Origin: Thermodesulfobacteriota bacterium
Lineage (GTDB): Bacteria; Desulfobacterota; Desulfobacteria; Desulfobacterales; Desulfosudaceae
Direction of reading: 5' to 3'
Length of the DNA stretch: 64,000 nt
NCBI GenBank assembly: GCA_040753795.1
Contig: JBFMDX010000001.1
Location: 186,001-250,000, forward strand
The translations under genes were made by a program, and so were the position numbers. A model generated the notes under the pieces. It saw only the letters and a program-made list of their open reading frames with translations. It was not told the origin of the DNA and did not search any database. Of the stretch, positions 4,361 to 19,826 are shown piece after piece. Each line of letters opens with the position of its first letter. Within the stretch, counting starts at the first letter, position 1.

Positions 4361-5119
4361 ATGACCGCGGCAGCCGTCCTGGAAAACACCGCCATTGTCC
4401 TGGTGCGGCCCCGTATTCCGGAAAATATCGGGGCCTGCTGCCGGGCCATGATGAACATGGGCCTCCGGCGGCTGGTGGTAGTGGCACCGGAGAACCTCGA
4501 GTTCGACCGGATTTACAAAACCGCCACCCACGTGGCCGTGGCCGTGGCGGACGCCATACAGGTCTGTGACAGCCTGGAAACGGCCTTGTCTTCCTTTACC
4601 TATATCGCCGGGACGACCGCCCGAAGGGGGAAGCAGCGCCAGCTGGTTTTGCCCCCGGAGCAGCTGGCCCGCAAAATGGTTGCTCTTTCCGCGGACAATT
4701 CCATGGCCATTCTGTTCGGTCCCGAGGACCGGGGGCTGGAAAACGACGAACTGCGCTTTTGTCACAACCTGATCACCATACCGACGGCGGATTTTTCGTC
4801 GCTGAATCTGGCTCAGGCGGTCATGATCGTCTGCTATGAAATCTTCCGGGCGGCCGGCGAGAAGGAGCCTGAATTCCAACCCCGTCTGGCCAATCACCAC
4901 GAGCTGGAGGGCATGTACGATCACTTAAAGGACGCCCTGATCAAGATCGATTTTGTCAACCGCAGCAACCCGGATTACTGGATGAACAATTTCCGCCGGT
5001 TTTTTGCACGGGTCGGCCTGACGGCCAAGGAAGTCCGGCTGATCCGCGGCATCTGCCGACAGATCAACTGGTATGGAGAGAAACGGTACGCCGACGGAAA
5101 AAAAGAAGGCCGCCCCTGA
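4361..5119 (+). CDS. trmJ: tRNA (cytidine/uridine-2'-O-)-methyltransferase, TrmJ type
   Basis: A 252-residue SPOUT-superfamily enzyme. SpoU motifs are visible: ENTAIVLVRPRIPENIGACCRAMMNMG at the N-terminus (Asn and Glu of motif 1), LFGPEDRGLENDEL (motif 2) and IPTADFSSLNLAQAVMIVCYE (motif 3, AdoMet knot). The C-terminal extension with an RRFFARVGLT block is usual for TrmJ, which methylates position 32 of tRNA. It starts 2 bases after ndk. Its 3' end overlaps the terminator of the convergent TRAP operon. Confidence 0.88.
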   Translation: MTAAAVLENTAIVLVRPRIPENIGACCRAMMNMGLRRLVVVAPENLEFDRIYKTATHVAVAVADAIQVCDSLETALSSFTYIAGTTARRGKQRQLVLPPEQLARKMVALSADNSMAILFGPEDRGLENDELRFCHNLITIPTADFSSLNLAQAVMIVCYEIFRAAGEKEPEFQPRLANHHELEGMYDHLKDALIKIDFVNRSNPDYWMNNFRRFFARVGLTAKEVRLIRGICRQINWYGEKRYADGKKEGRP

Positions 5120-5130
5120 CAGCGGCGGCC
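5098..5130 (-). terminator. Intrinsic terminator of the TRAP operon
   Basis: GGCCGCC (5108-5114) pairs with GGCGGCC (5124-5130) over a 9-base loop. Read on the minus strand the stem is followed by TTCTTTTTTT. It lies 20 bases past the stop of the last DctP-like gene and inside the last codons of trmJ on the other strand. For trmJ transcription the downstream T run is poor. Confidence 0.85.
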
Positions 5131-5150
5131 CTCTTTATGGCAATCCCTGC

Positions 5151-6545
5151 TTAATGTGTTTTTGCCCGGAACTCTTCCAGCGCCTTCTGAATTTCGCCCA
5201 ACAGGTCACCGGGAAATACCGTACCGGTCAGTTTCTGCGCCACGGCCTTATTTACTTTCTGAAGGACCGCCTGATCTTCAGCGGACAGGGTAACGGACTT
5301 CATGCCGCACTTGGTTTCAAAGGCTTTCAGACTTTTTTCCTCGTACATTCTGATCTGCCGTCTCCATTCCGGCTCAACGATGTTCCATTCGGCGGCCAGA
5401 ACCTCAATGATGTTATGGGAAAAGACGGCGGAAACGCCCAGTTGTTTCTGAATTTTATGTTTTTTATCGACGCTGACAATAACGGCCGCCGGTGAATAGA
5501 GCAGATGTGGCTTGATATAATAGTTCGAGTACTGGTAGGCCTGCATGCCCAGCATCCAGGCGGCCGGGGCTATATTGGTTTCGGCCGCGCCGGTGTTAAG
5601 CGCTGCTACGATATCCGGCACGGCCACGGGTTTGGGGGTAATCCCCAGTTCCTTGAAAAAGGTGGTTTCGATGGAACCGAACCAGGTCAGGACCTTTTGC
5701 TTTTTAATATCCTCCAGGCCGGCCGTTTTGGTGGTGGAGAACATGTAAAAGAATCCGGTGTCGATCAGCGCCCACAGGACGTATCCTTTTTTTTCAAACC
5801 CGTCGTCCAGCCGTTTTCTGAATTTTTCAAAGATGTAATCCACCTCTTCAAAGCTGGTGAACAGGCCTGGCACCAGCAGGACGGCCGCTTCCGGGCAGGT
5901 CTCCAGCACGCCCAGGGCGGTGCAGCCGCAGCAGTCCAGCTGGCCGGAGCCCATTTTTTTCAAAATTTCCGGGTCCTCGCCCATGACGCCGCCGCCGTAT
6001 ATTTTGGTTATAAATTTTCCGTCGCTCAGCCGTTCGAACTCGGGAAAGGCGATGGTCTCGGGAACGCTCAGCCAGGGGGTGCCCGGAGGCGCCAGGGTGC
6101 CGACCCTGAATATTACGGGATCTTCTTTCTTGACCGGTGACGCCATGGCCCGCCACATGATTTCCCGGCCTCTTTTCCAATCCATATGGGGCGCGAAAAT
6201 GGCGTTGAATCGTTCCGGCAGGGCTTTGAGCGCGTATCGCGATGTCTTCTGCCGGTCCAGCAGGGACAGAAACGCCGCTTCCATCATGCTTTCCAGTTCG
6301 GCCTTGTTGACGTTGCCGCTCGTCAGCGCGGTCTGCAGCGACTGCTGCCGTTGCTTAACTTCCGGGCTGAATTCCTGTCCGGTCCATATGGCCTCCAGGC
6401 TTGCCTGGAGGTTGTTCTGGAAATCCGTGCGGGCGGCGTCAGCTGCCGCGGCCGCGCCAGCGAACAGCAAGGTCGCCGCCAGGAACAGGCATAACCACCG
6501 CACCGGCGGCCGGATATTGACTGAACGCGCGATAGAAATAGCCAT
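5151..6545 (-). CDS. DctP-like TRAP substrate-binding protein, paralogue 1 (promoter-distal)
   Basis: A 464-residue exported protein and the last gene of the operon. Layout: signal peptide (about residues 1-38), an extra N-terminal helical-looking domain of about 110 residues (contains AIWTGQEFSPEVKQRQQ), then a DctP domain beginning at VFRVGTLAPPGTPW. It has the family-wide DCCGCTALGV and ETKCGM cysteines, and TWFGSIETTFF where ordinary DctP proteins have an arginine-bearing strand. The start at 6545 has GGAG 8 bases upstream, and gives the same length as the paralogues; 6551 has GGAG only 2 bases away. TRAP binding proteins deliver a ligand from periplasm to DctQM; the ligand here is unknown. 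A 160-base gap separates it from paralogue 2. Confidence 0.85.
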   Translation of the reverse strand: MAISIARSVNIRPPVRWLCLFLAATLLFAGAAAAADAARTDFQNNLQASLEAIWTGQEFSPEVKQRQQSLQTALTSGNVNKAELESMMEAAFLSLLDRQKTSRYALKALPERFNAIFAPHMDWKRGREIMWRAMASPVKKEDPVIFRVGTLAPPGTPWLSVPETIAFPEFERLSDGKFITKIYGGGVMGEDPEILKKMGSGQLDCCGCTALGVLETCPEAAVLLVPGLFTSFEEVDYIFEKFRKRLDDGFEKKGYVLWALIDTGFFYMFSTTKTAGLEDIKKQKVLTWFGSIETTFFKELGITPKPVAVPDIVAALNTGAAETNIAPAAWMLGMQAYQYSNYYIKPHLLYSPAAVIVSVDKKHKIQKQLGVSAVFSHNIIEVLAAEWNIVEPEWRRQIRMYEEKSLKAFETKCGMKSVTLSAEDQAVLQKVNKAVAQKLTGTVFPGDLLGEIQKALEEFRAKTH

Positions 6546-6705
6546 GACCATAACTCCTTTTGTGAAATGCGGTTGTTGTCGGAAACCTCCGAATTTTTCC
6601 AGGCGAAATCGAACGCGGTTGCAGCCGGCGGACAGGCGCCGCAATCAGATTTTATTAGAATACCGTGGAATTGAATACAAAACAATAATTTTCCACCTGC
6701 CTGGT

Positions 6706-8091
6706 TTACTGCTTCTGGGCCCGATACGCCTCCAGCGCTTTCTGAATATCATTCATCAGTTTTGCCGAAAAGACCTTCCCGGCCAGTTTCTGCTGAAGCG
6801 ACGTGCCTGCCTTTTCAATGACCTGCTGATCTTGCGGAGAGAGGACCACGGGCTGAATGCCGCATTTGGTTTCAAAGGCCATCAGGCTTTTTTCTTCGTA
6901 GCTTCTGATCTGCGCTTTCCACTCCGGTTCCAGGCCGTTGAATTCAGAAACCATTACCTCCTGAATGTTCCAGGCGAAAACGTCTGAAATGCCGATTTGC
7001 TTTTGCAGCCGGTCTCTCATGCGGGTGGAAACGATAACGGCCGCAGGTGAATAGAGCAGCGGCGGTTTGAGATAATAGCGGCAATACTGATGGGCCTGCA
7101 TCCCCAGGACCCATGCCGCGGGCGACAGGTTGGTGGTGACGACGTTCGTGCTGAGGGCAGTCACCAGTTCCGGCGTTGTCACAGGGATCGGGACAATTCC
7201 CAGTTCCTGATAAAGGGCCGTTTCCACGGTACCGAACCAGGTGGCAACTTTCTGACTTTTCATATCAGTCAGGCCGGTCACGGCGTTTTTAGAAAACAGG
7301 TAAAAAAAACCGGTGTCGATCAGGGCCGCCAGAATGTAACCTTTTTCCTCAAAAACCCGGTCCAGGTCCGGACGGAATTTTTCGCAGATGTAATCCACCT
7401 CTTCATAGTTTTTAAATAGTCCGGGTATCAGCAGCGCGGATGCGTCGGGAGAGGCCGTTAATACACCCAGGGCGGTGCAGCCGCAGCCGTCAACCTGGTC
7501 GTCCTTCATTTTTTTGAGGATTTCAGGGTCTTCCCCCATAACCCCGCCGCCGTAAATCTTGATCAAAATTTTTCCGCCGCTTAATGTTTCGATTTCCGGG
7601 ATGGTGCTGGTTTCCGGCACGGTCAGCCAGGGCGTTCCGGGAGGAGCCAGCGTGCCAATCCGTATCTGGAAAGGCTCCTTCCCCTGAATGGGGGACGTCA
7701 GGGCGCGCCACAGGATCTGCTTAAACTCTTTTTTGTTTATATGCGGGGAAAAAAGAGCGTTAAAACGTTCGGGCAGGTCTTTCTGGATATATCGAGAGGT
7801 TTTGTGCCGATCCATAATGGTCGTCAGCGCTGTTTTTGCCATGCTTTCCAGGTCGACCTTGGCCACGGCGCCGTTGTTGAGCATGGACTGCTGGCGCCGT
7901 TTGAGTTCAGGCCCTACTTCACGACCGGTCCACAGGGTCTCCAGGCTTTCCTGCAGAATTTTTTGAAAACCATCACGGGCGGGTGCGTCGCCAGCGGCCT
8001 CCGGCCGCGACGTGATGCCCAGTATCAGCAGGCAGAAGAATACTGGCAGCGGGCGGCGGATAAGTCCCCAACGAACACCGGGAATATGCAT
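6706..8091 (-). CDS. DctP-like TRAP substrate-binding protein, paralogue 2
   Basis: A 461-residue protein with signal peptide, the extra N-terminal domain (TLWTGREVGPELKRRQQ) and a DctP domain from IRIGTLAPPGTPWLTVPET. It keeps CGCTALGV and ETKCGI. It is the most divergent of the five at the binding-site block: TTNLSPAAWVLGMQAHQYCRYY replaces the TNMAPAAWMLGMQAYQYS form and adds a cysteine. GGGG lies 8 bases before the ATG. A gap of about 156 bases separates it from paralogue 3, longer than the gaps higher up in the operon, so mRNA levels could drop here. Confidence 0.85.
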   Translation of the reverse strand: MHIPGVRWGLIRRPLPVFFCLLILGITSRPEAAGDAPARDGFQKILQESLETLWTGREVGPELKRRQQSMLNNGAVAKVDLESMAKTALTTIMDRHKTSRYIQKDLPERFNALFSPHINKKEFKQILWRALTSPIQGKEPFQIRIGTLAPPGTPWLTVPETSTIPEIETLSGGKILIKIYGGGVMGEDPEILKKMKDDQVDGCGCTALGVLTASPDASALLIPGLFKNYEEVDYICEKFRPDLDRVFEEKGYILAALIDTGFFYLFSKNAVTGLTDMKSQKVATWFGTVETALYQELGIVPIPVTTPELVTALSTNVVTTNLSPAAWVLGMQAHQYCRYYLKPPLLYSPAAVIVSTRMRDRLQKQIGISDVFAWNIQEVMVSEFNGLEPEWKAQIRSYEEKSLMAFETKCGIQPVVLSPQDQQVIEKAGTSLQQKLAGKVFSAKLMNDIQKALEAYRAQKQ

Positions 8092-8247
8092 GATTCACCC
8101 CTTCTTTTTGTTCCTATAACCGATTCACCCCCGTCTGTCCCGCTGTCACACGAAACAGGCACCGGTACGGATGTGCTTCTGATGGAAGAGGCGGCCGGAA
8201 GGCCGCCTCCAAATGTTTTCGGCAAACGATCAGCTTCCGGCCCGGTG

Positions 8248-9642
8248 CTATTTTTTGCTCGCCCGGTAAGCGTCCAGCTCCTTCTGGATGTCGGCCATCA
8301 GTTCCGCGGAGAACGTCTTGCCGGACTGGGAAGCCAGAACCGCCTGGCTGGCCTTTTCAATCATCTTCATGTCTTCGGGAGAGAAGGTCATGGCCTTCAT
8401 GCCGCACTTGCTTTCAAAGGCTTTCAGGCTTTTTTCCTCGTAGGCCCTGATCTGCTTTTTCCATTCCGGCTCCAGGACGTTGAATTCAGCCACCAGCATT
8501 TCCTGGATGTTCTGGGCGTAGGTCTCCGATACGCCAATCTGCTTCTGCAGCCGCTCTTTGGTCTTTGAACTGACGATAACGGCTGCGGGGCAATAGAGGA
8601 AAGGCGGTTTGAGATAGTAGTTGGAGTATTGATAGGCCTGCATGCCCAGCATCCAGGCGGCGGGCGCCATGTTGGTATCGGCCAGGCCGGTGCTCAGGGC
8701 CGAAACCACTTCCGGAACCGCCACTGGGGTGGCGTTGATGCCCAGTTCCTTGTACAGGGTGGTTTCCATGGCGCCGAACCAGGTCAGGACTTTCTGCTTG
8801 CGCAGGTCCTCCAGGCCGGTAATCTTGTTGGCCGAGAATATATAAAAATAGCCGGTGTCGATCAGGGCCGCCAGGATATATCCCTTTTTCTCAAACCCCT
8901 CATCCAGTCTTCTCCGGAACTTTTCGCAGATGTAATCGATCTCGGCATAATTTTTAAACAGGCCCGGCAGGAGCAGAGCCGAGGTGTCCGGCGAGGCCGC
9001 CAGCACACCGATGGCGGTGCAGCCGCAGCTGTCGAGCTGGCCGATGTCGATCTTTCTGAGGATGTCCGTATCTTCCCCCATGACGCCGCCGCCGTAAATT
9101 TTGATCTGGAGCTTTCCTTCGCTCAGCCTTTCGATCTCGGGGAGGGTAACGGTTTCAGGGATGCTCAGCCAGGGGGTGCCCGGAGGCGCCAGGGTGCCGA
9201 GCTTGATCACCATGGGGTCCTCCTTCTTAGCCGGGGACGCCATCACCTTCCAGGCAATGTCTTTAAATTTTTTCCAGTCCATCTGCGGGGCCAGCAGGGC
9301 GTTGATCTGTTCCGGAAGCCCTATCTGGATATATCGGGATGTCTGCTGGCGATCCAGTACGGAAGGCATCATTTTCTGCAGCATGGCTTCCAGGTCGGCC
9401 GCCTGCACGGCGCCTGTTCTCAACGTGTCTTTGATGGTTTCCTGTTTCTGCTTCAACTCCGGGGTCAGATCCTGCCCGGTCCACAGGGCCTCCAGAACGG
9501 CCTGAAGCATGCCCTGGAATTCGGCAGTTCCGGCATCCGCCGCCGCAACGGCGGCCGGGCGCCACGTCAGAATCATCATGATCATGATGCCGCACAGTAC
9601 CCGCAGCCGGGGTTTCATGGAACGCAGATGGATAGTAACCAT
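8248..9642 (-). CDS. DctP-like TRAP substrate-binding protein, paralogue 3
   Basis: A 464-residue exported protein. It has a signal-anchor-like N-terminus (VLCGIMIMMILTW, then AAVAAADA), the extra domain with ALWTGQDLTPELKQKQE, and a DctP domain starting IKLGTLAPPGTPWLSIPET. The block IYGGGVMGEDTDILRKIDIGQLDSCGCTAIG is nearly the same as in paralogue 4. GGAGGAG lies 5 bases before the ATG. The gap to paralogue 4 is 36 bases. It probably arose by tandem duplication from a shared ancestor with its neighbours. Confidence 0.85.
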   Translation of the reverse strand: MVTIHLRSMKPRLRVLCGIMIMMILTWRPAAVAAADAGTAEFQGMLQAVLEALWTGQDLTPELKQKQETIKDTLRTGAVQAADLEAMLQKMMPSVLDRQQTSRYIQIGLPEQINALLAPQMDWKKFKDIAWKVMASPAKKEDPMVIKLGTLAPPGTPWLSIPETVTLPEIERLSEGKLQIKIYGGGVMGEDTDILRKIDIGQLDSCGCTAIGVLAASPDTSALLLPGLFKNYAEIDYICEKFRRRLDEGFEKKGYILAALIDTGYFYIFSANKITGLEDLRKQKVLTWFGAMETTLYKELGINATPVAVPEVVSALSTGLADTNMAPAAWMLGMQAYQYSNYYLKPPFLYCPAAVIVSSKTKERLQKQIGVSETYAQNIQEMLVAEFNVLEPEWKKQIRAYEEKSLKAFESKCGMKAMTFSPEDMKMIEKASQAVLASQSGKTFSAELMADIQKELDAYRASKK

Positions 9643-9678
9643 AACGACTCCTCCTTTATCTTTTCTGGGGCTTGATGG

Positions 9679-11076
9679 TTAATGCTTTGCTCTGTATTCC
9701 TCCAGCGCTTTCTTAATGTCGACGATCAGATCCGCGGAAAAAGCCTTGCCGGCCATCTGTCGCTGCACGGATTCGCCCGCCTTTTCGATGGCCTGCTGGT
9801 CTTCAAATGAAAACGTCATGACCTTGATGCCGCATTTGCTTTCGAAGGCCTCCAGGCTTTTGCCCTCGTAAGCCCTGATCTGCCGTCTCCATTCCGGCTC
9901 GATGGAATTAAATTCAAAAACCAGCAATTCCTGGACATTGTGGGCGTAAGTCTCGGACACGTTGATCTGCTTCCGCAACCGTTCCTTGGTTTTGGTGCTG
10001 ACAATGACGGCCGCGGGTGAATAGAGCAGGGCCGGTTTGAGAAAATATTTGGAATACTGATAAGCCTGCATGCCCAGCATCCATCCCGCCGGCGACAGAT
10101 TGGTGTCGGCCAGTCCGGTACTCAGGGTGGATACGATTTCCGGGACGGCCACGGGCGTGGGATTGATGCTCAGTTCCTTGTAAAGGGCTGTTTCCATGGC
10201 ACCGAACCAGGTCAGGACCTTCTGCTTGCGCAAATCCGCCAGGCCGGTGATCTTGTTTTTGGAAAACATATAGAAGAAGCCGGTGTCGATCAGGGCCGCC
10301 AGAATATACCCTTTTTTTTCAAACCCCTCGTCCAGCCGTTTTCTGAATTTTTCGCAGATGTAATCGACTTCTTCGTAATTTTTGAACAGGCCCGGCACCA
10401 GAAAGGCCGAGGTGTCCGGAGAGGCCGCCAGAACGCCGAGGGAGGTGCAGCCGCAGCTGTCGAGCTGCCCCATATCCATCTTTCTGAGAATGTCGGTGTC
10501 TTCCCCCATGACGCCGCCTCCGTAAATTTTCATCAGAACCCTGCCCTCGCTCAGCCTTTCGATTTCCGGAAAGGCAATGGTCTCGGGAACGGTCAGCCAG
10601 GGTGTGCCCGGCGGAGCCAGGGTGCCGACCTTAAACAATACAGGATCTTCTTTTTTGACCGGTGACGTCATGGCCCGCCAGATGATTTGCTTGATTTCAT
10701 CCCAGGTCATTTGAGGCGCAAAGAGGGCGCTGGCGCGGGTGGGGAAATCCTTGAGAATGTATCGTGAAGTTTTATGCCGGTCCAGAATGGAAGAAATAGT
10801 TTCTTCCGTCATGGTTTCCATCTCGGATTTTGGCACGGCGCCCGATGCCAGCATGGCTTTAAGGGTTTCCTGCCGCTGCTTTAATTCCGGAGAAAATTCC
10901 TGACCGGTCCACAGCGCCGTCAAGCTTTCGACCAGGATGGTTTGAAATCCCTGCCGCCCGGCATCCGCTGCCGCGGATACCGTCGGCCCAACCATGATGC
11001 TGATCAGCAGCGCGATAAAAACGGATAAAAAGACCCGCGGCAGATTGATTCCGGAACGCGCGTTCGAAATAACCAT
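9679..11076 (-). CDS. DctP-like TRAP substrate-binding protein, paralogue 4
   Basis: A 465-residue protein with signal peptide (VFLSVFIALLISIMVG, cleavage near VSAAADA). The N-terminal extra domain reads ALWTGQEFSPELKQRQE, and the DctP domain starts at FKVGTLAPPGTPW. It has LDSCGCTSLGV, TWFGAMETALYKEL and ESKCGI, all features of this five-gene set. GGAG lies 8 bases upstream of the ATG. It is 17 bases downstream of paralogue 5, so the two are tightly linked. Fold assignment is firm; the ligand is unknown. Confidence 0.86.
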   Translation of the reverse strand: MVISNARSGINLPRVFLSVFIALLISIMVGPTVSAAADAGRQGFQTILVESLTALWTGQEFSPELKQRQETLKAMLASGAVPKSEMETMTEETISSILDRHKTSRYILKDFPTRASALFAPQMTWDEIKQIIWRAMTSPVKKEDPVLFKVGTLAPPGTPWLTVPETIAFPEIERLSEGRVLMKIYGGGVMGEDTDILRKMDMGQLDSCGCTSLGVLAASPDTSAFLVPGLFKNYEEVDYICEKFRKRLDEGFEKKGYILAALIDTGFFYMFSKNKITGLADLRKQKVLTWFGAMETALYKELSINPTPVAVPEIVSTLSTGLADTNLSPAGWMLGMQAYQYSKYFLKPALLYSPAAVIVSTKTKERLRKQINVSETYAHNVQELLVFEFNSIEPEWRRQIRAYEGKSLEAFESKCGIKVMTFSFEDQQAIEKAGESVQRQMAGKAFSADLIVDIKKALEEYRAKH

Positions 11077-11093
11077 TTTCCCGTCTCCTTAAT

Positions 11094-12482
11094 CTAATGC
11101 TGCGCCCGGTAAGCCTCAAGCGATTTCTGGATGTCTCCCATCAGGTCTTCCGGGAAAACCTTACCGGCCAGTTTCTGCTGGACGGCTTTACCCGCTTTTT
11201 CGATGGCCTGCTGATCTTCGGGTGAAAAGGTGACGGCCTTCATGCCGCATTTGCCTTCAAAAGCTTTCAGGCTTTTTTCCTCGTAATCCCTGATCTGCCG
11301 GTTCCATTCCGGCTCCAGAGCGATGAATTCAGACACAAGGATTTCCTGAACATTGAAGGCGTAAATCTCGGACACGCCGATCTGTTTTCGTACCCGGTCG
11401 ACCAAATCTTTAGAGATGAAGACGGCTGACGGTGAATAGAGCAGGGGCGGCTGAAGATAAAAACTGATGTATTGATAGGCCTGCATGCCCAGCATCCAGG
11501 CCGCCGGCGCCATGGTGGTTTCAGCCTGGCCGGTACTCAGGGCGGAAACGATGTCCGGCACGGATACCGGCATGGCGGTGATTCCCATTTCCTGGAAAAA
11601 GGTGTTTTCCATGGCGCCGAACCAGGTCAGGGCCTTCTGTTTTCTCAAATCCGCCAGGCCGGCCACCTTGTTTTTCGAGAACAGATAGAAATAACCGGTA
11701 TCAATGATGGCGACCAGGACGTATCCTTTGTCCTCAAAGGCCTTGTCCAGCCGCTTTCTGAACTTTTCACAGATAAAATCCACTTCTTTATAATTCTTAA
11801 ACAATCCCGGCAGGAGCAGCGACGACATGTCCGGTGACGCTTCCAGCACGCCCAGGGCGGTGCAGCCGCAGCCGTCCAGCTGGCCGGCGCCCATTTTTCT
11901 CAGCACCTGGGTGTCTTCCCCCATGACGCCGCCGCCGTAAATCTTGATCAGAACCTTTCCGTCACTCAACTTTTCGATTTCGGGAATGGCGATGGTTTCA
12001 GGTACGTTGATCCAGGGAGTGCCCGGCGGGCCCAAGGTGCCGATCCGGATTTGTATGGGATTGTCTTTTCTGGCCGGGGACGACATGGCCTGCCACAAGA
12101 TGGGTTTCACCTCTTCCCAGGTCATGTGGGGAGACAGGAGGGCGTTCACTCGCGCGGGAAAGTCCTTGAGAATATAACGGGAGGTTTTATGCTGATTCGG
12201 TATGGAAAGAAAGGACGCTTCCAGCAGGCTTTCCAGTTCGGCTTTCGACACGGCGCCGGAAGTCAGCATGGTTTTGACGGTTTCCTGCCGCTGTTTCAGC
12301 TCCGGGGAAAATTCCTGGCCGGTCCACAGGGCCGTCAGGCTTTCGATCAATACGCCCTGAAATTCCGGGGAAACAGGTTCCGCCGCGGCATTCAATGGAC
12401 TTCCCGCCGAAAGGGCCAGGATGGCAGTGGCAAACAGCAGCCACGGACGAATGTTTCTGAAAAACACTTGCCGGCTGAACAT
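11094..12482 (-). CDS. DctP-like TRAP substrate-binding protein, paralogue 5 (promoter-proximal)
   Basis: A 462-residue exported protein and the first of the five, directly after dctM (39 bases). It has a signal peptide (WLLFATAILALSAG), the extra domain (ALWTGQEFSPELKQRQE) and a DctP domain from IRIGTLGPPGTPWINVPET. CGCTALGV and EGKCGM are kept. The start at 12482 (MFSRQ) was chosen because AAGGAGG lies 6 bases upstream; an ATG 6 codons earlier (12500) lies before that site. Being closest to the permease genes it may be the principal binding protein, an inference from position only. Confidence 0.86.
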   Translation of the reverse strand: MFSRQVFFRNIRPWLLFATAILALSAGSPLNAAAEPVSPEFQGVLIESLTALWTGQEFSPELKQRQETVKTMLTSGAVSKAELESLLEASFLSIPNQHKTSRYILKDFPARVNALLSPHMTWEEVKPILWQAMSSPARKDNPIQIRIGTLGPPGTPWINVPETIAIPEIEKLSDGKVLIKIYGGGVMGEDTQVLRKMGAGQLDGCGCTALGVLEASPDMSSLLLPGLFKNYKEVDFICEKFRKRLDKAFEDKGYVLVAIIDTGYFYLFSKNKVAGLADLRKQKALTWFGAMENTFFQEMGITAMPVSVPDIVSALSTGQAETTMAPAAWMLGMQAYQYISFYLQPPLLYSPSAVFISKDLVDRVRKQIGVSEIYAFNVQEILVSEFIALEPEWNRQIRDYEEKSLKAFEGKCGMKAVTFSPEDQQAIEKAGKAVQQKLAGKVFPEDLMGDIQKSLEAYRAQH

Positions 12483-12521
12483 TTTTTGCCTCCTTACCAT
12501 TACAGGTTCAACGCATGCCTC

Positions 12522-13838
12522 CTACAGCAGGGATGACGGGTCAATGATCGCTGGTTTATCCGTGAATTCAAGCAGATAAAGCGATAAGGCCGGGATGTAG
12601 GTGATCAGCAGAACGCCGATGAGCAGCAGAGCAATAAAAGGAAGAATCGAGCGCACGATCGTGGGTAAAGATTTGTTGAACTTGAGCGAGGAGATGAACA
12701 GGCTCATGCCCACGGGCGGGGTAAGGAAGCCCAGTTCCAGGTTGGCCAGAAAAATAATGCCCAGGTGAACCGGATCGACGCCGTATTTCAGGGCGATGGG
12801 GACCACGATCGGCACGACAATGGCGCAGGCGGAAAAGATGTCCATGAGCGCGCCGACCATGAGCAGGAAGCCGTTCAGCAGGAGGAGAAAGGTGTACTTG
12901 CTGGTGATGTACTGACCGAGGAATTCAAACAGTTTTTCCGGAACGGACAGGGTCACGAACACGTCCGTCAGGCCCAGGGCCATGCCCACGATCATCAGGA
13001 TGGCGCCGTTCATGATCATGCTGCGGCGGATGATTGAGATCAGCTTGCGGAAGTTCAAATCCCGGATGACAAACCACTCCACCACCAGCACATAGATTGC
13101 GGCCACGGCCGCGGCTTCGGGCGCAGAAAACAGGCCGGTCAGGATGCCGCCGACCACCAGCACGGGCAGGGGCAGTTCCCACTTGATCTCCCAGGTCGCG
13201 GCAGCCACTTCCGCAAAAGAGAATTTTTTCAGCGGGCTGTATTTGATGCCGAAGAAGAAGGCATAGGCGTAGAGCAGGGCGATCAGCAGGATTGCCGGAA
13301 GCAGCCCGGCTATGAACATGTCCTCCACGTTCAGGCTGACGCCTTTCTGCTGGCCGGCGATGACGCCATATAGGATCAAGGGCAGGCAGGGCATGAGCAG
13401 GGTGCCCAGGCTGCCGCCGGTGGTGATCAGGCCGAGGGTGAAATTTTCCGGGTAGCCGTCTTTCTGGAAGACGGGATAGAGCAGGGTGCCGATGCCGACG
13501 ATGGTGATGGCGCTGGCGCCGGTAAAGGCGGTGAAGATGGAACAGGCGATCAGGGCGACAAAGCACAGTCCTCCGGGCAGCCAGCCCACCAGGGCGTTGG
13601 TCAGGCGCAGCATTTTTTCCGGCAGCCGGGTGTCGGCCAGCAGGTATCCGGAAAAGATAAAGAGCGGGATGGCGACAAAGATCGGCATGGTGGTCAGCCG
13701 GTAGAAGTCCGTGAACAGGGTGGCGGGGGCGATGTCGATCACGAAATAAAAGTTGGCAAAGGCCATGCCGCCGATGATAATAAACAGGGGTTCACCGGAT
13801 ATCGCCAGCAGGAGAAGTCCTAACGCAATGAATGTCAC
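12522..13838 (-). CDS. dctM: TRAP transporter large permease, DctM type
   Basis: A 438-residue protein of about 12 hydrophobic segments, the usual size for an unfused DctM subunit. Recognisable DctM features include the N-terminal GEPLFIIIGGMAF region, IPLFIFSGYLLAD, a long GASAITIVGIGTLLYPVF segment, and LANLELGFLTPPVGMSLFISS near the end. It forms the transport channel, with DctQ, and uses an ion gradient. The start is GTG at 13838 with AAAGGA upstream. Its stop lies 39 bases before the first binding-protein gene. Confidence 0.93.
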   Translation of the reverse strand: MTFIALGLLLLAISGEPLFIIIGGMAFANFYFVIDIAPATLFTDFYRLTTMPIFVAIPLFIFSGYLLADTRLPEKMLRLTNALVGWLPGGLCFVALIACSIFTAFTGASAITIVGIGTLLYPVFQKDGYPENFTLGLITTGGSLGTLLMPCLPLILYGVIAGQQKGVSLNVEDMFIAGLLPAILLIALLYAYAFFFGIKYSPLKKFSFAEVAAATWEIKWELPLPVLVVGGILTGLFSAPEAAAVAAIYVLVVEWFVIRDLNFRKLISIIRRSMIMNGAILMIVGMALGLTDVFVTLSVPEKLFEFLGQYITSKYTFLLLLNGFLLMVGALMDIFSACAIVVPIVVPIALKYGVDPVHLGIIFLANLELGFLTPPVGMSLFISSLKFNKSLPTIVRSILPFIALLLIGVLLITYIPALSLYLLEFTDKPAIIDPSSLL

Positions 13839-13868
13839 GCCCGAATTCCTTTCAACCGTATGAGGCTG

Positions 13869-14375
13869 TTAATCTGTGTTCCTTGCCTTGCGGATATCGT
13901 TTATCTCGGTCAGGAAACAAACGAAAAACTTGAAAGCCATGGACAGAAAACATACCGGAAACATCAGGGTGATGACCCATTCCGGGGTGTGAATGGCCGA
14001 TTCGATTTTTCCCACCTCTCTGGTCACCAGCACGTAATCCCAGGAGAATTTCATGAACAGCAGGCAGGCCAGAGCGGCCACGAGCATTAAAAACATGCTC
14101 AAGTATCTGTTGTAGGGAGGCTTGAGTATTCCCTGGAGAAGGTCGATATTGATGTGGCTTCTTTCGAAACTGGAGGTGGCGATGCTGGCGCCGAGCAGGG
14201 CCAGCGCCAGCAGGGCCATACTGTTGTATACCGCCATCCAGATGATCGAATAGTCAAAGAAATTTCGCAATACGACCTGAATGAAGGCAAAAATGGAGAG
14301 TGACAGCAGCAGGAGAACAATGGCCGTCAACTCGACATTGTAGATGATGCGTTCGATTTTATACAGGATTTTCAT
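13869..14375 (-). CDS. dctQ: TRAP transporter small permease, DctQ type
   Basis: A 168-residue protein with four predicted membrane helices, the usual DctQ build. The second helix is followed by FFDYSIIWMAVYNSMALLALALLGASIA, matching the DctQ pattern of an aromatic-rich loop and a conserved mid-protein helix. Its ATG is 2 bases after the tatT stop, so translation is probably coupled. It is the small membrane partner of DctM. Confidence 0.9.
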   Translation of the reverse strand: MKILYKIERIIYNVELTAIVLLLLSLSIFAFIQVVLRNFFDYSIIWMAVYNSMALLALALLGASIATSSFERSHINIDLLQGILKPPYNRYLSMFLMLVAALACLLFMKFSWDYVLVTREVGKIESAIHTPEWVITLMFPVCFLSMAFKFFVCFLTEINDIRKARNTD

Positions 14376-14376
14376 C

Positions 14377-15252
14377 TTATTGCTCCAGGAGACCCCTCTG
14401 TTTTAGAATAAATCTGGCCTTGGCCTTGGCGATCTGGTTCAACAGCTCGATTTCTGGCATCTCGCCATCCGGGGTATCGATGATTTTTCGCAGGGTCATC
14501 TCGGCGTCTTTGTCGTCGGTCAGATAGAATTTGGCGTAAAACACCTTCGGAAGAAGGAACTTGCCCTTGTTCATCTTGTCGATGGTGTCGAACGCTTCCT
14601 TGGCCTTTTTCTTGTCTCCGCCGAAGGTGGCCGGCAGCATGCTGTTGACCGTTCCGACAAACATGTGCGCGAATCCATGGAAATAATTGCTGTCCAGCTC
14701 CGCCACATGGTTGGCCATGGTGTTGACCGGGGCCAGGTCAATGGCGATCATGGGGTCGCCGGCGTTCAGCAGTACGTTGGCGCCCATGCAGGAGGCCGTC
14801 CACAGCAGGGACGGAGCGAATTTTTTGCTCTTGATCTGCTTGGTGGCTTCGCCCACGCTTTTCCCTTTTTCTATCGCTTTACGGAATCCCCGGTGTTGCT
14901 TGAGCAGCCGCATGCCGCATTCGGTTCCGCGGGTATACAGGGCGGTGGCTTTTTCCGGGTGTTCGTCTTCGACCAGCATGCCCAGGCCGGTGTAGGCTTT
15001 AACGGCCATGGTCAACAGGAGCGGGTCATTGGGAGCCGTCCCCAGCAGGCCTTCCAGAAGCAGGATTTGTCCGGGCAGCCCTTTCTCCACTAAATCCAGG
15101 TTTTTCTGCTGGAAAAGAGCGACCTCGATGTTCTCGATGGCCGGATGCGCGACCTTGATTCCCGAGCGAAGCATGGGAGTGCATCCGCATACGATTACCA
15201 GAAGAGCGGCAACGGCGGACATACACACCATTTTCTTTTTTAGTGAAGTCAT
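14377..15252 (-). CDS. TRAP-associated TPR lipoprotein, TatT family
   Basis: A 291-residue lipoprotein and the first gene of the operon. The signal peptide ends in a VCGC lipobox-like site, giving a lipidated Cys at about residue 24. The body is all-helical, with TPR-like spacing; LLLTMAVKAYTGLGMLVEDEHPEKATALYTRGTECG and the FHGFAHMFVGTVNSMLP segment are features I associate with the TatT family (Treponema pallidum Tp0956). TatT is a trimeric TPR lipoprotein that pairs with the TRAP binding protein TatP and was proposed to handle hydrophobic ligands. GGGAGA precedes the ATG. Finding tatT, dctQ, dctM and dctP-like genes in one unit strengthens the call. Confidence 0.85.
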   Translation of the reverse strand: MTSLKKKMVCMSAVAALLVIVCGCTPMLRSGIKVAHPAIENIEVALFQQKNLDLVEKGLPGQILLLEGLLGTAPNDPLLLTMAVKAYTGLGMLVEDEHPEKATALYTRGTECGMRLLKQHRGFRKAIEKGKSVGEATKQIKSKKFAPSLLWTASCMGANVLLNAGDPMIAIDLAPVNTMANHVAELDSNYFHGFAHMFVGTVNSMLPATFGGDKKKAKEAFDTIDKMNKGKFLLPKVFYAKFYLTDDKDAEMTLRKIIDTPDGEMPEIELLNQIAKAKARFILKQRGLLEQ

Positions 15253-15365: not shown

Positions 15366-15395
15366 ACTATATATGAAGAAAGGCGGGGCAGTCAA
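15366..15395 (-). promoter_or_regulatory. Sigma-70-like promoter of the TRAP operon
   Basis: On the minus strand TTGACT (15395-15390) and TATAGT (15371-15366) are 18 bases apart; TATATA with a 16-base spacer is an equal alternative. It lies about 115 bases upstream of the tatT start. Confidence 0.6.
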
Positions 15396-15590
15396 TCCAT
15401 TTCGGAATTCATGATGAAAAACCATATCGCGAGCCATTATAAGTGTTTTGCCTGGAACTGTTACGTTGAACTTTTTACTTTTACGGTAAAACAGGGTAAA
15501 TAATGATGGATCGTCTCTGTTTGTCAACACTTTTTCCTTTATGTTCCGCAGGCGGTCTTCCGGCGTTGGCCGACGGTGGTTGAGAAACCT

Positions 15591-15619
15591 TTGAAAACCA
15601 TGGCGGTTACTGCTATATT
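15591..15619 (+). promoter_or_regulatory. Sigma-70-like promoter of the 1386-residue protein gene
   Basis: TTGAAA (15591-15596) and TATATT (15614-15619) are separated by 17 bases. The ATG of the next gene is 46 bases downstream, with AGAGGAAGG between. Confidence 0.6.
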
Positions 15620-15665
15620 GCCAATCGTTATTCTCCATTCTTCAAAAATCAGAGAGGAAGGCCCC

Positions 15666-18600
15666 ATGCGAACCCTATCCGTTACTTTTATGTGCTTGCT
15701 GCTGGCGGCGTCGGTTACGGCCGCCCCCCTTTCCCGCCAGGACGTTCCGGACGCTTTGCGGCCATGGGTCGAGTGGGCCCTGTACGGTGAACAACAGGAC
15801 GTTTGCCCGATCGTTTTCAATGACGGCGAACAAGCCATTTGTGCCTGGCCGTCGTTTCTGACCCTGGATGTTCAGAAGTCGACCGCGGCCTTCTCCCAGC
15901 AGTGGCGCGTGTATGCCGAAGACCTCTGGCTGACCCTGCCGGGCGGGGAAGGCCTGTGGCCCCAGGAGGTGACGGTCAACGGCACGGCCCATCCGGTCGG
16001 CGACAGGGACGGCCGCCCCTCAGTGCGGATTTCCGCTCCCGGTGAGTATACGATCAGCGGGGCCTTTTATTTTAACCGCCTTCCGGAGTGGTTCCGCGTG
16101 CCGGAGCAGACGGGCCTGATCCGGCTGGTTGTTGACGGCCGGCCGGTGGCTTTTCCCCGTCTGGACAGGGAGGGCCGTCTCTGGCTGAGGCAGGAGGGAG
16201 ACCGGGAGGCGGCGGCCGAAACCCAGGAAAACCGGCTGCAGGTGCGGGTGCATCGACTGATTCAGGACGATATCCCCCTGCGGCTGATTACCCGCCTGGA
16301 ACTGTCCGTGTCGGGTCGGCACCGGGAAGCCCGTCTGGGGCAGGCGGATACCGGACAATTTACTCCCATGCGGATCGACAGCGACCTGCCCGTCAAGATC
16401 GACACCGACGGCACCCTGGTGGCGCAGGTCCGGCCCGGCAAGTGGACCATTGAAATCGTAACCCGACATCAGGGACCGGTGTCCGAACTGATCCTGGACG
16501 CGGTCGGCGGTTTTGGCGCTGATGAGGAGATCTGGGCCTTTGACGCCCGTCGGCACCTGCGCCAGGTGGCGGTGGAGGGACCGGCCCAGGTTGACCCCCT
16601 TCAGACCACCGTGCCGGAGGAGTGGCGGCAGTATCCGGTTTACGTCATGACCCCCAGGGATAAGATGTCCTTTGTGGAAAAGAAACGGGGGGATCCCCAG
16701 CCGGCCCCGGATCAGCTCAATCTGGAGCGGACCCTGTGGCTGAATTTTGACGGCGGCGGCGTTTCCATCCGGGATCATATCTCCGGCACCATGACCACCG
16801 GCTGGCGGCTGGAGATGGGGCCGCCCCAGGAACTGGGCCGCGTCACCGTCAACGGTCAGGAGCAGTTTATCACCCGGCTGGCCGGCGCGGACAAGGCCGG
16901 CGTCGAGATGCGCTACGGGTCCGTTGATCTGACCGCGGAGAGCCGGGCCGAAACCGCCGGCCGTCTGCCGGTGACCGGCTGGGACCGGGATTTCCAGTCG
17001 GTCAAGGGCACGTTGAATCTGCCGCCCGGCTGGTCCCTGCTGCATGCCGCCGGCATCGACAATATCCGGCAGACCTGGCTGAAACAGTGGGAACTGCTGG
17101 ATTTGTTCCTGGTGCTGATTATCGCCGTGGCGGCGGCCAGGCTCCGCGGCTGGAAATGGGGGGCGGTGTGCCTGATTACCGTTGTCCTGATCAACCACGA
17201 GGCCGGCGCTCCCCGTTGGGTCTGGCTGCATCTGCTGGCGGCCGTGGCCCTGCTGCGGGTGCTGCCGAAGGGCCGAATCCGTTTCCTGGTTGATTATTAC
17301 CGGCTGGGCGCCCTGATCAGCCTGGTGGTGATCAGCCTGCCGTTCATGGTGACTCAGATCAGGACCGGCTTTTATCCTCAACTGGAGCAACCCTGGCAGG
17401 TGATGGGTCCCTTCGGCGAACAGGAAGAGACGGCCGACGTCCGGCTCGACAAGGTCCACGCGATGGCCAGGATCGAGGCCGGGATGGTGGCGGAGCAGAT
17501 GGCCGCCCCGGCTCCCGAAGCGTCCGTTGCCGCGTCATACCCGGGCCGGAGCCGGCAAGCCCAGGTCGCCATGGTGGATACCGGCGCCAAAATCCAGACC
17601 GGACCGGGCATCCCCAACTGGAACTGGCGCCAGGTATCCTTTTCCTGGAACGGTCCGGTGGGCCGGGGGGAACAGATGACGTTTATCTTCCTCTCGCCGG
17701 GCGCCAATCTTTTACTGGCCCTGGCGCGGGCGACCCTGCTGGCGGTCATGATGTTCGGGCTGGCCGGGGTGGGGTATGCCAGCGGCCGCGGGTTTGATTT
17801 TTCCGCTATCCGGCCGGGACCGGCCATGGCCCTGGTCCTGATGGTTTGCGTCCTGGCGGCCGTTCCCGAGGCACGGTCCGCCGACACCTTTCCGCCGGAC
17901 TCCCTGCTGCAGGAATTGAAGGCCAGACTGACCGATCGGGATCCGCCCGACTGTCTGCCCGGTTGTGCCGCCAGCCCCCGCATGAAAGTGGTCATGGACA
18001 ATACGTCACTCCGGATCCGGATGGAAATACACGGCCTGAGTGACGGCGTGGCCGTACCCCTGCCGGGATCCGACCAGCACTGGCTGCCGGAAACGGTTCT
18101 GGTGGATGACCGCCCCGTGACCGACCTGTATCGCTCTCCCGCCAGCGGAACCCTGTGGCTGAATGTCGCCTCCGGAAAACACCAGGTGGATCTGCGGGGG
18201 CCTCTGCCCCGGCGGCAGACCGTGCAGCTGCCCCTGCCGTTGAAGCCGCGTTATGTCGAGGTCCAGGCCGAAGGATGGACCGTCGAAGGACTTCATGACA
18301 ACGGCGCGGCCGACGATCAGTTGCAGTTTTCCCGGACCGGACGGGACAGCATAGCTGCCGGCGAATCGGCCGGAGAGTCGTTTGATCCGGTGCTGTTGCC
18401 GCCGTTTCTGGAAGTGACCCGGACCCTGTCTCTGGGGCTGACCTGGCGGGTGGATACCCGGGTCCGGCGGCTGACGCCGGCCGGAACGGCCGTGGTGACG
18501 GCCATCCCCCTTCTGGCCGGAGAGTCCGTCACCACGGAAATTCCCGTGGAGAACGGCCGGGTGCTGCTGAACCTGGGGCCGAACCAGGCGGAATTCGAAT

Positions 18601-19826
18601 GGTCTTCCACCCTGGAGGTGGCGGACCGGCTGGTGTTGAAAGCGGCGGACACACTGGACTGGACAGAGGCCTGGAACGTCAATGTCGGTCCGATCTGGCA
18701 TGCCGAGATCCAGGGCATCCCGGTGATTCATCACCAGGACCGGACCGGCAGCTGGCTGCCGGAATGGCGTCCCTGGCCGGGAGAAGAGGTGACCATTAAC
18801 CTGAACCGTCCGGAAGGCGTGGGCGGGCAGACCCATACCATCGAGAAGACCCGGCTGACGGTCCGGCCGGGCCAGCGGATCACGCAGACCGAACTGGACA
18901 TGACCATCCGCAGCAGCCGGGGCAGCCGGCAGACCGTGATACTGCCGGACCAGGCCGTTCTGCAGACGGTGGAGATCAACGGCGCTTCCCAGGCCATCCG
19001 CCAGAGCGGCCGCAACGTGGTCCTGCCGCTGACGCCCGGGCAACAGGAAATCCGGCTGACCTGGCGGGAGAACCGGGATCTGGGCTGGAAATGGCTGACG
19101 CCGGCGGTGGGTCTGGGTATGGCCAGCGTGGATTCGTTTATTACGACTCATATGCCGAGGAATCGCTGGGTGCTGCTGTGCGGCGGTCCCCACGTGGGGC
19201 CGGCGGTTCTGTTCTGGAGTGTCGTGGTGGTGATTCTGCTGATGTCGGCCGGGCTCGGCCGGCTGGATGTCACTCCGCTGCGCTTTCGGCACTGGCTGCT
19301 GCTGGCCCTGGGGCTGACCCAGGCGTCGCTGCTGATCGCCCTGCCGGTGGCGGCCTGGTTCCTGGCAATGGGGTACCGGAAAAGAGCGCCGGACCGCCTC
19401 CCCGGTTTTGTTTTTAACCTTACCCAGATAGCGCTGGCGGGGCTGTCCGTCGCCGCCATGTCCGCCCTGCTGTTCGGTATCAAGCAGGGGTTGCTGGGGT
19501 ATCCGGACATGCAGATCGCCGGTAACGGATCCGGCAACTACTTGCTCAACTGGTATCAGGATATTTCCGGAGATGTCCTGCCCCGGGCCTGGGTGTTTTC
19601 CCTGCCGATCATCGTTTACCGGATCCTGATTCTGCTCTGGGCCCTGTGGCTGGCCCTGGCCGTTGTCACCTGGCTGAAGTGGGCCTGGGAATGCTACAGC
19701 GCCGGCGGTCTGTGGCGGCCGGTAGAATGGCGAGGAAGGTTTGCCGGAAAGGGGGAACCGGCGGTGCAAACACCGCCCCCGGCTTCCGACCTTGACCTGG
19801 ACCTGCCGGAAGATGAGACGGTCTGA
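15666..19826 (+). CDS. Large multi-pass membrane protein of unknown function with duplicated periplasmic modules
   Basis: A 1386-residue protein I cannot assign to a family. The start at 15666 has AGAGGAAGG upstream and gives a proper signal peptide (VTFMCLLLAASVTAAPL). Layout: a beta-rich exported part to about residue 470, membrane helices at about 476-575, a short loop and further helices at about 680-735, a second beta-rich part at about 749-1160, then C-terminal helices from about 1177 to 1340 and an acidic tail. The two soluble parts look related: each opens with paired cysteines, then an LPG...W.P..V.V.g block and a G.v...pG turn. It is transcribed away from the TRAP operon. An envelope or transport role is possible but unproven. 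Confidence 0.85.
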   Translation: MRTLSVTFMCLLLAASVTAAPLSRQDVPDALRPWVEWALYGEQQDVCPIVFNDGEQAICAWPSFLTLDVQKSTAAFSQQWRVYAEDLWLTLPGGEGLWPQEVTVNGTAHPVGDRDGRPSVRISAPGEYTISGAFYFNRLPEWFRVPEQTGLIRLVVDGRPVAFPRLDREGRLWLRQEGDREAAAETQENRLQVRVHRLIQDDIPLRLITRLELSVSGRHREARLGQADTGQFTPMRIDSDLPVKIDTDGTLVAQVRPGKWTIEIVTRHQGPVSELILDAVGGFGADEEIWAFDARRHLRQVAVEGPAQVDPLQTTVPEEWRQYPVYVMTPRDKMSFVEKKRGDPQPAPDQLNLERTLWLNFDGGGVSIRDHISGTMTTGWRLEMGPPQELGRVTVNGQEQFITRLAGADKAGVEMRYGSVDLTAESRAETAGRLPVTGWDRDFQSVKGTLNLPPGWSLLHAAGIDNIRQTWLKQWELLDLFLVLIIAVAAARLRGWKWGAVCLITVVLINHEAGAPRWVWLHLLAAVALLRVLPKGRIRFLVDYYRLGALISLVVISLPFMVTQIRTGFYPQLEQPWQVMGPFGEQEETADVRLDKVHAMARIEAGMVAEQMAAPAPEASVAASYPGRSRQAQVAMVDTGAKIQTGPGIPNWNWRQVSFSWNGPVGRGEQMTFIFLSPGANLLLALARATLLAVMMFGLAGVGYASGRGFDFSAIRPGPAMALVLMVCVLAAVPEARSADTFPPDSLLQELKARLTDRDPPDCLPGCAASPRMKVVMDNTSLRIRMEIHGLSDGVAVPLPGSDQHWLPETVLVDDRPVTDLYRSPASGTLWLNVASGKHQVDLRGPLPRRQTVQLPLPLKPRYVEVQAEGWTVEGLHDNGAADDQLQFSRTGRDSIAAGESAGESFDPVLLPPFLEVTRTLSLGLTWRVDTRVRRLTPAGTAVVTAIPLLAGESVTTEIPVENGRVLLNLGPNQAEFEWSSTLEVADRLVLKAADTLDWTEAWNVNVGPIWHAEIQGIPVIHHQDRTGSWLPEWRPWPGEEVTINLNRPEGVGGQTHTIEKTRLTVRPGQRITQTELDMTIRSSRGSRQTVILPDQAVLQTVEINGASQAIRQSGRNVVLPLTPGQQEIRLTWRENRDLGWKWLTPAVGLGMASVDSFITTHMPRNRWVLLCGGPHVGPAVLFWSVVVVILLMSAGLGRLDVTPLRFRHWLLLALGLTQASLLIALPVAAWFLAMGYRKRAPDRLPGFVFNLTQIALAGLSVAAMSALLFGIKQGLLGYPDMQIAGNGSGNYLLNWYQDISGDVLPRAWVFSLPIIVYRILILLWALWLALAVVTWLKWAWECYSAGGLWRPVEWRGRFAGKGEPAVQTPPPASDLDLDLPEDETV

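Follow-up and report, generated by a model that had tools for sequence, protein, structure and literature searches.

By its gene content, the locus at positions 15252–5151 on the minus strand of the window (the whole stretch of 64,000 nt analyzed here) is a TPAT-type TRAP transporter operon, in which tatT is followed by dctQ, dctM and five consecutive dctP genes, denoted P1–P5 (Table 1). The operon belongs to a bacterium within a sulfate-reducer group. DctM, DctQ and DctP, whose joint presence marks a TRAP transporter, all score above the Pfam cutoffs (PF06808, PF04290, and PF03480, respectively), the latter in each of the five dctP genes, all of them intact. The gene tatT (PF16811), whose location next to the QM and P genes marks the TPAT type, lies immediately before dctQ. 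The gene order, strand and Pfam matches agree with the earlier note, which had described one TatT-type TRAP operon with five tandem paralogues.

TatT is a predicted lipoprotein with a VCGC lipobox near residue 24, and its sequence matches a solved TPR-region protein, 8g52 (E = 8e-7). The start of P5 is assigned to ATG at 6551, where a ribosome-binding site is found, and not to TTG at 6644, the start of a longer frame. Genes from tatT to P3 are separated by 1–36 nt, and the gaps preceding P4 and P5 are wider, 156 and 154 nt, respectively. A single transcript including P4 and P5 is likely. A stem-loop between P3 and P4 is possibly a partial terminator or an mRNA stabilizer, and a 3+2 arrangement of the P genes in transcripts is also possible. 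Divergently from tatT, a 1416-aa open reading frame (15576–19826, plus strand) without Pfam or NCBIfam matches encodes an apparently exported protein with a signal-like start near 15692.

Table 1. Features of the operon and of related loci. Positions refer to the window or, where a locus is named before the colon, to that locus.
Feature	Position	Strand	Remarks
tatT, T-component of TPAT-type TRAP transporter	14377–15252	-	PF16811 137 bits, cutoff 26.5
dctQ, small membrane subunit	13869–14375	-	PF04290 61.6 bits
dctM, large membrane subunit	12522–13838	-	PF06808 239 bits; TIGR00786 above cutoff
P1, long-type DctP, 468 aa	11094–12500	-	PF03480, NF037995, N-domain HMM
P2, long-type DctP, 465 aa	9679–11076	-	PF03480, NF037995; predicted structure, mean pLDDT 88
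P3, long-type DctP, 464 aa	8248–9642	-	PF03480, NF037995, N-domain HMM
P4, long-type DctP, 461 aa	6706–8091	-	PF03480, NF037995, N-domain HMM
P5, long-type DctP, 466 aa	5151–6551	-	PF03480, NF037995, N-domain HMM
N-terminal domain of P1	12060–12386	-	
N-terminal domain of P2	10645–10971	-	Predicted fold, pLDDT 87.7; no Pfam match
N-terminal domain of P3	9217–9543	-	
N-terminal domain of P4	7675–8001	-	
N-terminal domain of P5	6120–6446	-	
CGC motif of P2	10447–10455		Residues 208–210; equivalents in the other four copies
Stem-loop between P3 and P4	8188–8209	-	z -4.1 for region; coding strand without T-run
Intrinsic terminator after P5	about 5099–5137	-	
Promoter-like sites upstream of tatT	15366–15527	-	Consensus matches only
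P proteins with double N-terminal domain	L037:11234–12904, L044:7606–9270, L002:6569–8038		
START-domain neighbors	L043:13516–14595, L037:9649–10929, L044:9450–10772		
Two-gene neighborhood (membrane-anchored protein, universal-stress-like protein)	L036:7023–8341, L043:14602–15974		

Divergence of the five paralogues and their binding cleft

In pairwise comparisons of P1–P5, protein identity is 57–67%, nucleotide identity is 66–72%, dS is 0.9–1.4, and dN/dS is 0.21–0.32; hence these are old duplicates, all of them under purifying selection. As five old, intact and selected genes reside on a contig of 626 kb, neither chance nor assembly error explains the array; the latter is rejected given that 28–34% of bases differ between the copies. 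Identity in a sliding window forms a gradient along the proteins with the minimum at the N-terminus, and sharp blocks, as expected from gene conversion, are not seen. No plasmid copies were found at near identity.

The cleft-forming segments (six segments, selected from known DctP anatomy and HMM alignments rather than from coordinates) show the strongest conservation within the proteins, with 64% of positions invariant among P1–P5, compared to 37% in the remaining DctP domain and 25% in the N-terminal domain. This reverses the earlier suggestion that the copies diverge in the binding region. As the cleft is retained and changes accumulate elsewhere, related ligands are favored: rather than binding unrelated ligands, the copies more likely accept related ones, or else operate under differing conditions or with differing partners.

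The region of residues 144–460 is predicted to adopt the DctP fold, as judged by comparison with solved structures of TRAP binding proteins (Z of 28–31). In all 21 long-type proteins, L, I, V, A, or G occupies the place of the arginine that confers selectivity in TRAP and interacts with the ligand carboxylate. This arginine is present in 96.8% of DctP proteins (PMC4646407), being typical of TRAP rather than universal; TatP proteins mostly lack it (PMC5812351), so its absence is indicative of TPAT while being compatible with a TRAP transporter. The replacements are consistent with the hydrophobic ligands proposed at the outset, the ligand class itself being probably hydrophobic, lipid-like or hydrocarbon-derived. 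Moreover, the predicted cleft of long-type proteins contains a CGC motif (CGA in one member), where short TatP-like proteins have AG[ILM]. The long-type proteins constitute a rare clade, which is marked by the N-terminal domain and shares both the CGC motif and the loss of the TRAP arginine. Most of them also retain a third cysteine close to the C-terminus.

The N-terminal domain

Pfam and NCBIfam models match long-type proteins starting from approximately residue 144, the preceding part remaining unmatched. In P1–P5 this part comprises a type I signal peptide, as read from the sequence, and an N-terminal domain of approximately 105 residues; the latter was overlooked in the earlier note, which had correctly recognized the paralogy of the five genes. 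AlphaFold predicts five helices for the domain, both within the whole protein and alone (mean pLDDT of 87.7 in the latter case). Comparison of the domain with Pfam yields no family, the best hit among PDB sequences is a designed transmembrane protein (E = 0.0048), and no PDB fold matches it at E ≤ 0.001. The best superposition, with a chain of the 4n9f complex (Z = 8.7, rmsd 3.5, 101 residues), is within the chance level for helical bundles. Hence the predicted domain has no credible relative in Pfam or PDB, which does not by itself make it a new fold.

In a phylum-wide sample of 395 genomes, three have the domain, and the order-level search, in which at most five candidates were scored per genome, found it in six of 291 genomes; both counts include the genome studied here. 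It is met only as a fusion to DctP, and all genomes where it was found also encode a TatT. In three orthologous long-type proteins from three genera it is doubled in tandem, and for this reason it behaves as a module. Two of the three genes encoding these double-domain proteins have a START-domain protein as a neighbor.

Related operons, copy numbers and gene neighborhoods

Related operons form a graded series, with one to three long-type P genes at the operon compared to five in the T-Q-M-P5 arrangement described here. Two genomes (G249 and G321) have T-Q-M-P, another (G204) has Q-M-P with a divergent tatT, G001 has P-T-Q-M-P, and G002 has P-P-T-Q-M-P in a contig that is cut. Given the one to three genes in relatives, the five-gene array represents an expansion in this lineage, and the phylogenetic tree, grouping the five with other copies from the same genome, also agrees with the lineage-specific expansion put forward earlier. 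In the tree, P1–P5 and two dispersed copies form one group (support of 93/95, which is not strong) next to the downstream P of G001. A clade of exactly P1–P5 is not recovered, as one dispersed copy (C3) is placed among them, while a single clade is not rejected either (p-AU = 0.41). Dispersed copies have orthologues in G001 (support of 100/99), hence some dispersed lineages predate the split of the genera.

Thirteen long-type proteins are encoded in the genome, five in the operon and eight on seven other contigs, together with two TatT and three complete DctM. A short-type P accompanies the second TatT and its QM, and a further DctP gene adjoins the third DctM, while no T, Q or M gene is located within approximately 4–9 kb on either side of the eight dispersed long-type genes. 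As the second TatT-QM is paired with a short-type P, a single matching permease is left for the thirteen long-type proteins. The proposal that one permease could serve several binding proteins is thereby strengthened by eight more candidates, and it remains plausible, the sharing itself being inferred from gene counts.

At three loci, distributed over two genomes, a long-type P gene has a neighbor encoding a secreted START-domain protein. The START domain is a lipid-binding fold, and these neighbors are possible periplasmic lipid-handling partners. Genes of the beta-oxidation type, encoding acyl-CoA dehydrogenase and enoyl-CoA hydratase, are adjacent to long-type P genes at two loci, but several dispersed loci have no lipid-related neighbor, and gene neighbors are weak evidence for the ligand class. 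A pair of genes encoding a membrane-anchored protein and a universal-stress-like protein adjoins a dispersed P gene in the genome studied here and the P-T-Q-M-P operon in G001; because of this common neighborhood, the site of the operon has probably changed in one of the lineages.

Possible working of the system and comparison with known transporters

Our preferred reading, held with moderate confidence, is that the operon encodes a TPAT-type TRAP importer of hydrophobic, probably lipid-like ligands, with several soluble binding proteins sharing one TatT-QM. The TatT lipoprotein would take the ligand into its own hydrophobic pore and pass it on to a soluble binding protein of the periplasm, for which TatT would serve as the docking site; after closing on the ligand, the long-type P would deliver it to the single DctQM pair for import by ion-coupled secondary transport. 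The binding protein with the N-terminal domain would have been amplified in this lineage to the five copies in the operon and the eight elsewhere, all using the same TatT-QM. TatT-type systems are regarded as carriers of hydrophobic molecules: TatT of Treponema pallidum (Tp0956) has a hydrophobic pore and holds hydrophobic ligands (PMC5812351), and BstC from the same superfamily as TatT binds sterols (PMC10942540). In TRAP transporters a binding protein usually works only with the membrane subunits of its own system, the pairs being usually unique, and a non-cognate interaction has been suggested in one case, DctP with IctQM (PMC12599236), so sharing is not a settled mode in TRAP transporters. 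Gene counts demonstrate an imbalance, not sharing, and the dispersed copies could serve sensors or have other roles. A stronger version, which we offer tentatively and consider somewhat doubtful, is a TRAP hub, where over ten soluble binding proteins, all equipped with a new N-terminal helical domain for docking, would feed a single TatT-QM with a family of hydrophobic ligands. If this were the case, the substrate range would depend on the set of binding proteins rather than on the permease.

The same conservation of the cleft, 64% of which is invariant, would also be expected if the five copies bound one and the same ligand and merely made the binding protein more abundant relative to the permease, and this agrees with the location of every operon copy downstream of dctM and with the stem-loop after P3, which could stabilize the message. 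Still, copies amplified purely for dosage are as a rule young and almost identical, or else are kept alike by gene conversion, whereas P1–P5 are 57–67% identical with dS near 1, so that dosage seems an unlikely explanation.

The remaining alternatives concern the partners of the proteins. Several of the proteins, in particular those encoded at dispersed loci, may have no part in transport and instead carry or sense ligands in the periplasm together with START-domain proteins or signal receptors. The eight long-type genes without a permease nearby, the START-domain neighbors at three loci and the retention of orthologous double-domain copies in three genera are compatible with such a role, which we nevertheless regard as quite improbable, as no genome was found to have the N-terminal domain without TatT and the five P genes of the operon directly follow dctM. 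Finally, different paralogues could combine in one TatT3-P3 complex instead of acting as alternatives, given that TatT of T. pallidum forms a trimer, to which three TatP bind (PMC5812351), and that the N-terminal domain, which could set the choice of partner, varies among the copies more than the DctP domain. Such mixing is not required, since single-P operons with the N-terminal domain exist, and we consider it quite improbable as well.

The closest known counterpart of the importer with shared TatT-QM, our preferred reading, is the TPAT system of T. pallidum (TatT Tp0956, TatP Tp0957, and TatQM), which likewise combines TatT, DctQ/M and DctP, with the arginine missing from P; superposition of the predicted DctP domain from P2 and Tp0957 (3u65) covers 301 residues, with Z = 28.7 and rmsd 3.3. 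By contrast, T. pallidum has one P, which is a lipoprotein, whereas here there are five, soluble and with type I signals, so that the number of binding proteins, the N-terminal helical domain, the CGC motif, and soluble rather than lipid-anchored P proteins distinguish this system from the known TPAT. Precedents for sharing come from other families. The orphan TctC/Bug proteins of Bordetella (TTT family) are also many per few membrane units and mostly encoded away from the permease (PMC5812351), but they represent a different transporter family and are dispersed, while here five are also found in one operon. Multi-binding-protein ABC importers share one membrane unit, as proposed here, but are ATP-driven and not homologous. 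For TRAP transporters sharing is not established, and in the literature accessible to the search we found no account of a TRAP operon where multiple dctP genes accompany one QM pair. With thirteen related binding proteins and a single candidate permease, the question whether a TRAP permease can serve many of them becomes directly testable; the same set provides material for finding ligands of TatT-type systems, while the N-terminal domain, as yet unnamed, can be removed for testing.

A similar excess is observed for short-type TatP-like paralogues of family f68 from the same order: four genomes (G069, G140, G162, and G230) have 16–22 DctP, many of them TatP-like and some in tandem, per one or two TatT and few DctM. 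The N-terminal domain was not found in the three f68 genomes covered by the phylum search, and the six short-type proteins checked have no CGC. We found no description of this excess in the literature. Within the order, TatP-like proteins outnumber TatT more widely, as observed in four genomes of one family.
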